From a virus: DNA of 64,000 nucleotides. Each line of letters starts with the position of its first letter. The first letter of the stretch is position 1. The notes under the pieces are model-generated. The model was given only the letters and a program-made list of their open reading frames with translations. It was not told the DNA's origin and ran no database searches. The stretch is taken from positions 26,805 to 90,804 of IMG/VR virus record IMGVR_UViG_3300048088_000314. One strand, given 5' to 3'. Made by a program: the position numbers and the translations under genes. Positions 60,693-62,655 of the stretch are shown piece after piece.

Positions 60693-60745
60693 GGCCTCGT
60701 CAGATGCCGCATGACGGCATGACCGGGCAGCGCCCGGTTTCGGCC
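60693..60745 (-). ncRNA. Type II hammerhead ribozyme A
   Basis: Minus strand, 5' to 3': stem II GGCC (60745-60742), GAA (60741-60739), stem III ACCGGGC-GCT-GCCCGGT (60738-60722), cleavage base C17 at 60721, stem I ATGCCG-TCATG-CGGCAT (60720-60704), CUGACGA core (60703-60697), stem II GGCC (60696-60693). Every invariant core position of the hammerhead fold is present. Predicted cut between 60721 and 60720. Starts in the TAG stop of the upstream gene; the SD and ATG of the 60679 gene follow. Confidence 0.88.
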
Positions 60746-60966
60746 TAACCCTCCCAACTCACGCCAAGCGCCCGCAACTCGTCGTCGCTCCGGTAGAGCG
60801 CGAACATGCAGCACTGATTGCCCGCCGCGTCGTGCGCGCCCCGCGCGGTGGGACACGGTAGCGCGATGACGCGATCCGCCACGCTCCGCAGGATGCGCCG
60901 GATTTCCTCGCTCGGGTCAGCCGCGAAGGCCGGCCCGCCACAGTCGATCTCCAATCGAAACCTCAT
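60745..60966 (-). CDS. Hypothetical protein (73 aa)
   Basis: From ATG 60966. Contains FRLEIDCGGPAFAADPSEEI and ELRALGVSWEG, with a CCMF pair. The stop codon contributes the first G of ribozyme A. No family. Confidence 0.5.
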   Translation of the reverse strand: MRFRLEIDCGGPAFAADPSEEIRRILRSVADRVIALPCPTARGAHDAAGNQCCMFALYRSDDELRALGVSWEG

Positions 60967-60976
60967 CTCGCTCTCC

Positions 60977-61342
60977 CTAATCCGGTATCCGTTCCAGGCC
61001 GCGCAAATCGGCCTCGTAATAGAGCGCGTCGAGCGCGGGACCTGAGCCGCCTATCGGCCCGGTGATCCTGCGCACGCGCCGCCACTCGGTCCCCGTCCAG
61101 CGCACAAGCCAGACGGCCCATTGCGCGCCCTCCCAGGTGTAGGTGTAGCGGCCGTCCCGCGACATCATGCTTCCGGCCTCGATCGGCTTGCCGGCTTCGG
61201 CGCGCGTGTAGAAGTCGATGTCGAGCGCCTTGGTGCCGACCGGGCGGGCGCGATCGGCCTCGCGCTTCTCCCGTAGGCGCTTATTCGAGTCCTCTACGAT
61301 CGAACGCCAGATCGAATTGGCGATGGCTTGCTCGGCGCTCAC
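60977..61342 (-). CDS. Hypothetical protein (121 aa)
   Basis: GTG 61342 overlaps the upstream stop (GTGA). Contains AIANSIWRSIVEDSNKRLRE and WVAVWLVRW-like strands. No family; probably alpha then beta. Confidence 0.5.
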   Translation of the reverse strand: MSAEQAIANSIWRSIVEDSNKRLREKREADRARPVGTKALDIDFYTRAEAGKPIEAGSMMSRDGRYTYTWEGAQWAVWLVRWTGTEWRRVRRITGPIGGSGPALDALYYEADLRGLERIPD

Positions 61343-61686
61343 GACTTGTGCCCGCCGTGCCACGTCACGCCGCCGTCGTGGCTGTGATGCCCGGCGGCAA
61401 CGGACGCGCGGTTGACGGTGCGACCCGACAGCATCTCGGCGCGAGCGATGGCCGCTTTCGCACTGGCGCTGCCGGTCGCCATGATCGTGCGGTAGGCGCA
61501 GGCGTCCGTGACGCGGCTGCGCTCGTTGTCGCCCCAGCCCTGGAACGCGATAGCGCCGGTGAGCCCGACGACCGGCCGCACGGTGCCGGAAGTCAGCTTG
61601 GCGATCAGCCGCTCGATAGCGGTCTTAACCTCGGCCTTGCGCTCGGTGAGCGTCTGGTTGGGGAGGCGGCGGGTATCGCAGGGCAT
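61339..61686 (-). CDS. Hypothetical protein (115 aa)
   Basis: From ATG 61686 with AGGAGA 7 nt upstream. Contains TERKAEVKTAIERLIAKLTS, then GLTGAIAFQGWGDNERSRVT and a His-rich end (GHHSHDGGVTWHGGH). No family recognised. Leader generated by ribozyme B. Confidence 0.5.
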   Translation of the reverse strand: MPCDTRRLPNQTLTERKAEVKTAIERLIAKLTSGTVRPVVGLTGAIAFQGWGDNERSRVTDACAYRTIMATGSASAKAAIARAEMLSGRTVNRASVAAGHHSHDGGVTWHGGHKS

Positions 61687-61703
61687 TGGCAATCTCCTTG
61701 GCT

Positions 61704-61769
61704 TGGCTCGTCAGTGCGCCGGGCGCCACCCGGCACAGACGCCAGGGCAAAAGCCCCGGCGTTTCGCCA
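61704..61769 (-). ncRNA. Type II hammerhead ribozyme B
   Basis: Minus strand: stem II TGGC (61769-61766), GAA (61765-61763), stem III ACGCCGGGGC-TTTT-GCCCTGGCGT (61762-61739; 10 bp including one G-U), C17 at 61738, stem I TGTGCCGGG-TGGCG-CCCGGCGCA (61737-61715; one U-G), CUGACGA (61714-61708), stem II GCCA (61707-61704). Stem II covaries with ribozymes A and C (TGGC/GCCA against GGCC/GGCC), and the stems differ in length, so the structure rather than the sequence is kept. Predicted cut 61738/61737. Confidence 0.85.
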
Positions 61770-61773
61770 GTGT

Positions 61774-62577
61774 CTAGTCCAGGTCGAAGGCCATCACGGG
61801 CGCGAGCGGACGCGCTGTGATGGGGGGAACGCTATTCGGGGCATCCTCATAGAGGTCGATCGCCCTTCCCGTCGCCAGCGGGGCGGAAATCGGCTCCGCA
61901 TCGTCATCCGAAAGATCGAGAAAGGCGGTGCGCGCGCTGCGCAGCGTCACGAGAACCGACTTGTCGATTTCCGCTGCGCCGGTCTCGGCGGCCTTGACGA
62001 CGCGCCGGGCGAATGACCGCGCCACTTTCAGCGCCTCGGTGACGCGCTCGCTCGCGCCCTCGGTCAGCATCGAGCCGACCTCGCGCAGGCGGTTGGCGTT
62101 GTCCCGGATCGCCTCCACGTCGAGGGCTTGAACGCCGCGCTCCATGCGGTCGAGCAACTCCGCGACTTCCCCGTTGATCGCCTTCACCGCCTGAACGTCA
62201 TCGGCGGCAACGCGCCCGACGATGACGCCCACGGTGATGCGGGTGAGACTGGCGCTGTTGTTGAACTCGCGGGCGAGATCCTGAGCGGCGCCGATCGCAT
62301 CGCCAAGCTCGTTCTGCTTCGCCTCGGGGCAGAGCAGCCCAAACGTGGTGTTGGAGCAGACGCCCGTGATGAGCGACCGGCACTTGGAGCGCGCCTTGAC
62401 CGCGCGCGCGTGTTCCTCGGGGTTCTCGACGGTCTTCTCCGTCTCCCAGGACGCCACCAGGGCGCCGTAGTCGTCGCGGTGTTCCGCCTCGATCTCGGTC
62501 GACTTGTAGCGCACGTTCCCGCTGATTTGCGTCTTGAGGGCGATCAACAGGCCCGGCCGCAGGGTGCTAACTTGCAT
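61774..62577 (-). CDS. Helical phage protein upstream of the AAA+ ATPase operon partner (267 aa)
   Basis: From ATG 62577, GAGGAAA upstream. Begins MQVSTLRPGLLIALKTQISG with YGALVASWETEKTV; then an extended helical region (LREVGSMLTEGASERVTEAL) and a C-terminal acidic tail. The N-terminal form (L.PG.L..L.....G....) resembles DUF3150-like proteins found beside AAA+ ATPases; tentative. Leader generated by ribozyme C. The stop lies 4 nt before ribozyme B. Confidence 0.5.
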   Translation of the reverse strand: MQVSTLRPGLLIALKTQISGNVRYKSTEIEAEHRDDYGALVASWETEKTVENPEEHARAVKARSKCRSLITGVCSNTTFGLLCPEAKQNELGDAIGAAQDLAREFNNSASLTRITVGVIVGRVAADDVQAVKAINGEVAELLDRMERGVQALDVEAIRDNANRLREVGSMLTEGASERVTEALKVARSFARRVVKAAETGAAEIDKSVLVTLRSARTAFLDLSDDDAEPISAPLATGRAIDLYEDAPNSVPPITARPLAPVMAFDLD

Positions 62578-62597
62578 CGTGTTTCCTCGCTTGGTTT

Positions 62598-62655
62598 GGC
62601 CTCGTCAGGCGCCGCACTACGGCGCGACCGACTCCGCGCGGAGTCGGTTTCGGCC
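62598..62655 (-). ncRNA. Type II hammerhead ribozyme C (stem III is the dispersed palindrome)
   Basis: Minus strand: stem II GGCC (62655-62652), GAA (62651-62649), stem III from A15.1 at 62648 to U16.1 at 62627, made by the palindrome plus ACC/GGT flanks with loop GCGC; C17 at 62626; stem I GCGCCG-TAGTG-CGGCGC (62625-62609); CUGACGA (62608-62602); stem II GGCC (62601-62598). All core positions fit. Predicted cut 62626/62625. Stem I differs from ribozyme A by compensatory changes. Confidence 0.88.
62630..62645. repeat. Dispersed palindrome copy (exact; 22-bp extended) within ribozyme C
   Basis: GACTCCGCGCGGAGTC with ACC/GGT flanks, identical in 22 bp to the copy at 28547-28568. Here it is the stem III hairpin. 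Confidence 0.95.

Follow-up and report, generated by a model that had tools for sequence, protein, structure and literature searches.

Three type II hammerhead motifs lie within 2 kb of phage DNA, on the minus strand and in the gene junctions of a leftward operon, and they are probably active ribozymes that cut the polycistronic mRNA of this operon into separate blocks. This assessment draws on the sequence and on analogy with published phage arrays. The window, that is, the whole stretch of 64,000 nt that we analyzed, corresponds to bases 26,805–90,804 of a 90.8-kb virus record. The ribozymes are referred to as C, A, and B in leftward order, and their positions and those of the neighboring genes are given in Table 1.

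Detection and anatomy of the three ribozymes

All three motifs were found at the coordinates proposed in a first-pass annotation of this DNA, with their elements in the order GAAA, stem III, UC, stem I, CUGACGA, stem II. The core (CUGANGA, GAA(A), and U16.1 with H17 at the predicted cleavage site) is complete in each of them, and all have the type II topology, in which stem II is open and stems I and III are closed by loops. The full stem pairing and the compensatory changes among the three ribozymes are likewise real, as the stems differ in sequence and yet pair completely. Ribozyme C combines stem II GGCC/GGCC with stem III ACCGACTCC/GGAGTCGGT and stem I GCGCCG-TAGTG-CGGCGC; ribozyme B has stem II GGCC/GGCC and stem I ATGCCG-TCATG-CGGCAT. 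When both strands of the 64 kb were scanned structurally for hammerheads of types I, II, and III, only ribozymes A, B, and C were found, and the type II scan of 300 simulated 64-kb Markov sequences produced a single match, weaker than any of the three.

A search with the Rfam type II model (RF02276, Hammerhead_II), which had been put forward as the check on the three elements, bore out ribozyme A alone, which scored 40.1 bits against a gathering cut-off of 37 bits; ribozyme C (62,590–62,655) reached 29.2 bits and ribozyme B was not listed. The same model was run on 12 records that carry arrays, where four of the matches with E ≤ 0.001, located in two records, reached the cut-off. Because the Rfam model passes A alone, we built a covariance model, R1, from 30 hammerheads of other phage contigs, with the window sequences excluded. 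R1 recovered all three ribozymes in the window (E = 1.6e-17 for B, 1e-16 for C, and 1.1e-7 for A); these E-values are rough, as a fourth match with a nominal E of 3e-4 is a coding-sequence artefact. This weak match at window position 36,771 (+) was rejected because it lies in a coding region and has no GAAA, and another at position 189 (+) of contig L003 was discarded as apparent coding sequence without a proper core.

The Rfam shortfall for B and C is probably due to insensitivity of the model to a pentaloop subclass, characterized by a 6-bp stem I, a loop starting with U, and no Watson–Crick pairing between loop and tail. The 5-nt loops beginning with U are shared by B and C with most of the phage hammerhead set, and inspection by eye of loop I of B (UCAUG) and C (UAGUG) revealed no Watson–Crick match of at least 4 nt to the tail. 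In ribozyme A, loop I contains UGGC, complementary to GCCA in the 3′ tail, which could form a pseudoknot; the same layout of loop and tail is present in the related contig L561. Such a pseudoknot between loop I and the 3′ tail is common in type II hammerheads and is not obligatory.

The minimum-energy (MFE) structure of each ribozyme folded in isolation is the hammerhead. When flanking sequence is included, the hammerhead is kept for A and lost for B and C, in a folding model that has neither tertiary contacts nor co-transcriptional order. The stem III hairpins have folding energies of −15.7 (C), −20.8 (A), and −12.0 kcal/mol (B), and the stem I hairpins −11.5, −17.8, and −8.4 kcal/mol, respectively.

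Placement in the operon and the same junction in related phages

In leftward order, the locus reads AAA+ ATPase gene, ribozyme C, 267-aa gene, ribozyme A, 115-aa, 121-aa, and 73-aa genes, ribozyme B, and 161-aa gene. All three ribozymes are oriented like the genes, each with a stop codon on its 5′ side and the ribosome-binding site of the following gene on its 3′ side. The first-pass annotation placed the ribozymes in consecutive intercistronic gaps, which is incorrect: they occupy three of the five junctions, and the two ribozyme-free junctions both lie between A and B, the second and third ribozymes in gene order. In one of these the 115-aa and 121-aa genes overlap and in the other the 121-aa and 73-aa genes are 10 nt apart, so the ribozymes occupy those junctions that are long enough to hold one. 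The proposed start of 0–6 nt past the stop codon applies to two ribozymes, at 6 nt and 4 nt, and fails for ribozyme B, which overlaps the stop codon by 1 nt, its first base being the G of the upstream UAG at 60,745.

Table 1. Ribozymes, genes, and palindromes of the hammerhead locus (window coordinates)
Feature	Coordinates	Strand	Evidence
Hammerhead ribozyme C (type II)	62598..62655	-	R1 62.0 bits, E 1e-16; Rfam 29.2 bits; MFE structure is the hammerhead fold, −33.8 kcal/mol
Hammerhead ribozyme A (type II, pseudoknot subclass)	61696..61769 (ribozyme proper 61,704–61,769)	-	Rfam RF02276 40.1 bits; R1 33.3 bits
Hammerhead ribozyme B (type II)	60693..60745	-	R1 64.6 bits, E 1.6e-17; structural scan; MFE structure is the hammerhead fold
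AAA+ ATPase gene, cistron upstream of ribozyme C	62662..63999 (5′ end off contig)	-	Pfam AAA E 6.6e-28; phrog_8638 E 1.1e-159
267-aa protein, cistron between ribozymes C and A	61774..62577	-	phrog_11021 E 2.1e-47
115-aa protein, first cistron downstream of ribozyme A	61339..61686	-	phrog_11784 E 8.1e-31
ORF of about 121 aa (start codon uncertain), overlaps end of 115-aa gene; junction without ribozyme	60977..61342	-	ORF list, sequence
73-aa ORF, cistron upstream of ribozyme B; 10-nt junction to 121-aa gene without ribozyme	60745..60966	-	phrog_9027 E 5.7e-6
161-aa ORF, cistron downstream of ribozyme B	60194..60679	-	phrog_15104 E 3.2e-11
Perfect 22-bp palindrome ACCGACTCCGCGCGGAGTCGGT, forms stem III of ribozyme C	62627..62648	.	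One of about 20 genome-wide copies
Palindrome copy, 161-aa/85-aa gap, without ribozyme	60172..60187	.	
Palindrome copy, next gap downstream of the 161-aa/85-aa gap, without ribozyme	59810..59825	.	

The AAA+ ATPase shares 54% identity with its counterpart, the AAA-ATPase of Corndogvirus phages, and the pair of AAA and 267-aa genes is also present in Corndogvirus mycobacteriophages. The relatives of the 267-aa protein include those of contig L125 (47% identity) and Mycobacterium phage Firecracker (about 35%). In L125, which is the contig of locus L555, hammerheads precede the AAA gene and occupy both junctions that flank the 267-aa gene, and their stem sequences differ largely from those in the window. 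Among 77 contigs with an AAA gene and enough flanking sequence, three (L555, L558, and L561) have a hammerhead directly behind the AAA stop codon; besides this AAA/267-aa junction, further junctions of all three hold hammerheads as well, and the stems are largely different. L509, whose AAA sequence is the closest (80%), has no hammerhead in its gap of 26 nt. The low count and the gap in L509 indicate that self-cleavage is not essential at this site. Branch support in the AAA tree is weak as to whether the junction hammerhead arose once or several times.

Strong hairpins are present at 30 of 35 AAA/267-aa junctions of at least 40 nt, a count that takes in two hammerhead-bearing loci, and six of the junction hairpins carry a T-run and resemble terminators. 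Hairpins directly after the AAA stop codon, some of them terminator-like, were seen in L516, L525, L527, L534, L548, L559, L573, and others, at the place taken by hammerhead C in the window. In Firecracker, the one Corndogvirus examined, no hammerhead was found, and the gaps carry the 17-bp palindrome of its cluster. As relatives have either a plain hairpin or a hammerhead at this place, the sequences indicate that the common theme of the AAA/267-aa junction is a structured mRNA boundary, of which the predicted self-cleaving form is one variant among several.

Stem III of ribozyme C is itself a copy of a palindrome, ACTCCGCGCGGAGT with core TCCGCGCGGA, that occurs about 20 times in the 90.8-kb contig at distances of several kb. 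There are 13 matches in the window, compared to 0.77 expected (positions 8238, 12653, 20291, 24830, 28551, 38899, 40894, 48730, 52482, 56490, 59811, 60173, and 62631), and further matches in L003 (520, 8532, 8601, and 12190) and L004 (4766, 11073, and 13235). The two successive gaps after the 161-aa gene hold the palindrome and no ribozyme. In form it is similar to the 17-bp palindromes known from Cluster O mycobacteriophages (PMC4351075). Elsewhere in the window, a 4611-aa ORF at 10883–24718 (+) has a DarB-like antirestriction match with methyltransferase and helicase domains, a 1934-aa ORF upstream of it matches a DNA ejection protein, and a gene for a phage nicotinamide phosphoribosyltransferase (phrog_448, E 8e-146) is located at 44232–45551 (-).

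Type II hammerheads and their 3′ tails across phages

We scanned viral contigs with patterns for three stem II sequences and, separately, for N7 = A or G, which together yielded 476 distinct type II elements that form 345 clusters by flank homology. Of the 438 elements with enough flanking sequence, 330 (75%) start between −6 and +2 nt from a same-strand stop codon; the corresponding share is 4.4% for random positions and 9.6% for the opposite strand. The hammerheads are followed, in 83% of cases versus 25%, by a start codon with a Shine–Dalgarno sequence, at a median distance of 22 nt downstream. The largest arrays, counted over whole records, comprise 11 elements in 5.0 kb (L012 record) and 11 in 4.8 kb (L197 record), followed by nine in the L154 record and eight in each of three further records. 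Array elements in other phages are spaced at gene length, and the arrays of L012 (174–5156, -) and of the L197 record have roughly one type II hammerhead per gene. The many near-copy units in the L012 array suggest spread by duplication. In the alignment of 30 phage hammerheads, covariation is seen at 13 of 16 base pairs, and the share of cells that pair is 99.8%, compared to 67% in shuffles; the 119 loci from a scan of bacterial contigs included 25 well-formed elements, not enough to repeat the covariation test.

A separate observation concerns the sequence that follows stem II. In 87 of the 476 elements (about 18%; among them L008, L014, L037, L070, L075, L091, L108, L116, L227, L240, L302, L323, and about 75 others), a tail N′UCAG complementary to the core CUGA lies within 8 nt past stem II. 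Defining the match by complementarity of N′ to core position N7, we found agreement in 85 of 87 (shuffle mean 42.6, maximum 63). Among later elements, collected once this idea had been formed, 12 of 13 had a Watson–Crick pair and the thirteenth a G–U pair. Counted by independent flank clusters, the N7/N′ combinations are C/G in 27, U/A in 33, and A/U, U/G, and C/A in one each, and paired changes of N7 and tail are seen at homologous sites (L014 versus L075 and L116; L227 versus L240). Tails of the form UUCAG or CUCAG, predicted for N7 = A or G, were found in 0 of 40 such elements in the dedicated scan, and one UUCAG case was found later in an independent class (L323). The N7 rule thus holds where the tail exists, and the tail is almost confined to elements with N7 = C or U.

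Because N7 is free in the active fold, this covariation points to an alternative hairpin that would exclude the active core. In simple folds the hairpin is predicted for 85 of the 87 downstream products and also for 79 of the 87 precursors, so a role in product release and a role as a switch are both possible. A second type of tail, AG-N2-5-G.YT, is complementary to the 3′ strand of stem II (34 of 39 consistent versus 18.5 expected) and tracks the stem II class (GGCC, GTCC, GACC; L006, L041, L087, L112, L157, L172, L226, L281, L383, and others). For non-UCAG tails as a whole, refolding of the core did not differ from that of swapped tails by the core-pairing count, and did not differ clearly by MFE; the subset complementary to stem II alone stands out among them. 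The N′UCAG tail is absent from all three ribozymes in the window, whose tails begin AAGGAGG.., AGCCAAGG.., and AAACCAAG.. The covarying tail hairpin looks new, as no description was found in the papers searched, which are a part of the literature. It predicts refolding of the cleaved product, and it turns a vague idea of RNA processing into predictions for specific mutants and end mapping.

Taken together, the survey leads us to propose, tentatively and with somewhat less than even confidence, that type II arrays of up to 11 elements in about 5 kb segment phage operons, that their topology is chosen because it leaves hairpins on both of the new RNA ends, and that in about a fifth to a quarter of them a tail complementary to the core or to stem II refolds the downstream product and makes cleavage one-way or switchable. 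The array in the window would be the plain form.

Proposed processing of the mRNA, other readings, and known systems

Intercistronic mRNA processing is the best-supported reading of the three ribozymes, with cleavage and its effects predicted from published phage arrays. It is favored by the placement between stop codon and ribosome site on the same strand, by the intact cores with covarying stems, and by the relatives with hammerheads in their junctions. The nascent polycistronic RNA would fold and cut itself 3′ of C17 at 62,626, 61,738, and 60,721. The cut coordinates given in the first-pass annotation (62,626/62,625 for C, 61,738/61,737 for A, and 60,721/60,720 for B) agree with the predicted structures, as does its leader range of 41–51 nt; the predicted leaders have 48, 51, and 41 nt, respectively. 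In the type II layout the cleavage products share stem II as their sole common helix, and as it has just 4 bp they would separate. The upstream mRNA would end in the stem III hairpin with a 2′,3′-cyclic phosphate, and the downstream mRNA would begin with the stem I hairpin, with a 5′-OH and no overhang. Separately stable blocks, namely AAA, 267 aa, 115-121-73 aa, and 161 aa onward, could result, and their decay and expression would be uncoupled without host RNases or terminators. Simple folds before and after cleavage predict a clear rise in accessibility of the ribosome site for element B only, a result to which we give no weight.

It is also conceivable, if unlikely, that the ribozymes are active and regulated and would act as expression switches. 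Cleavage would then be controlled by the terminating ribosome, given a stop codon that touches stem II, by the initiating ribosome, given a ribosome site that touches the tail, or by a tail that pairs differently. Their position, beginning a few nt from stop codons and ending beside ribosome sites, fits such a scheme, as do the phage subset whose core-complementary tails covary with N7 (85 of 87 Watson–Crick, shuffle maximum 63, about 60 independent flank clusters) and the other subset with tails complementary to the 3′ strand of stem II (34 of 39 versus 18.5). However, such tails are absent from all three elements in the window, of which A could instead form the known loop I pseudoknot, and no ligand or sensor domain is visible in them. 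The elements may alternatively be selfish or duplicated intergenic units, or tracts of cassette-shuffling recombination, with no role in expression. The units of the L012 and L561 arrays are alike and repeat together with the ribosome site, and presence among relatives is patchy; the trio in the window, however, differs in stems I and III and spans two subclasses, its cores are intact, and no flanking signature of mobility was seen, all of which makes this origin improbable.

We consider it decidedly improbable that the hairpins alone matter, with stem III acting as an mRNA-stabilizing or RNase III-type boundary and the hammerhead activity incidental. In favor of this reading, the AAA/267-aa junction of most relatives lacks a hammerhead and forms a strong plain hairpin, and a copy of the genome-wide palindrome makes up stem III of ribozyme C. 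Against it, a plain hairpin would have no use for the core and stem II, yet both are intact in each of the three ribozymes and near-invariant in the family while the other stems vary. Chance resemblance can be given almost no weight. Hammerheads are small and false matches occur, such as the fourth R1 match at 36,771 (+); at the sequence level, however, coincidence is refuted by the yield of one weaker match per 300 simulated windows against three within 2 kb here, all in the orientation of the genes and flanked by stop codon and ribosome site, and by the covariation and the relatives.

The role of phage hammerheads is a question that has stood since 2011, and the locus described here is a compact and testable case, with three predicted cut sites between named genes and with relatives whose corresponding junction holds either a plain hairpin or a hammerhead. 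Firm position statistics and much longer arrays are contributed by the survey. The impression of the first-pass annotation that a series of intercistronic hammerheads is new was mistaken, as clustered hammerheads that flank individual genes in prophages were described by Perreault et al. (2011; PMC3088659), who proposed a role in mRNA processing. Their examples include a triple hammerhead array around ardA in Agrobacterium tumefaciens. Polycistronic transcripts of about 2 kb were cleaved in vitro, cleavage was also observed in E. coli, and 4 of 18 consensus hammerheads were inactive when tested (PMC3088659). A 2017 review (PMC6155905) repeated the association with small ORFs and phages and called the role open. 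The array in the window is a further example of the phage hammerhead clusters known since 2011.

Like the window, the clusters of Perreault et al. (PMC3088659) have several hammerheads, type II included, on one phage strand, flanking single genes or short blocks. The genes in the window are different (AAA+ ATPase, 267-aa, and 115-aa families), all three ribozymes are type II, the packing against stop codons and ribosome sites is very tight, and cleavage here is predicted. With respect to Rfam RF02276, ribozyme A shares the potential pseudoknot between loop I and tail, and B and C share the core, topology, and stem lengths. HHphage of haloviruses HF1 and HF2 (PMC3088659) likewise precedes a start codon at a short distance within a viral transcript and has a mapped 5′ end near the cleavage site, but it is a single element with a variant core in viruses of an archaeal host. 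The theta ribozymes of gut phages (PMC10879173) are also self-cleaving RNAs with which a phage processes its own transcripts, as predicted for the window; unlike the window's ribozymes, they have an HDV-like fold, follow tRNAs, and process tRNA 3′ ends. Finally, Cluster O mycobacteriophages (PMC4351075), which also have the AAA and 267-aa genes, carry 17-bp palindromic repeats in gaps like those where the ACTCCGCGCGGAGT palindrome is found; these repeats are DNA palindromes without a ribozyme, whereas in the window one palindrome copy lies inside ribozyme C.
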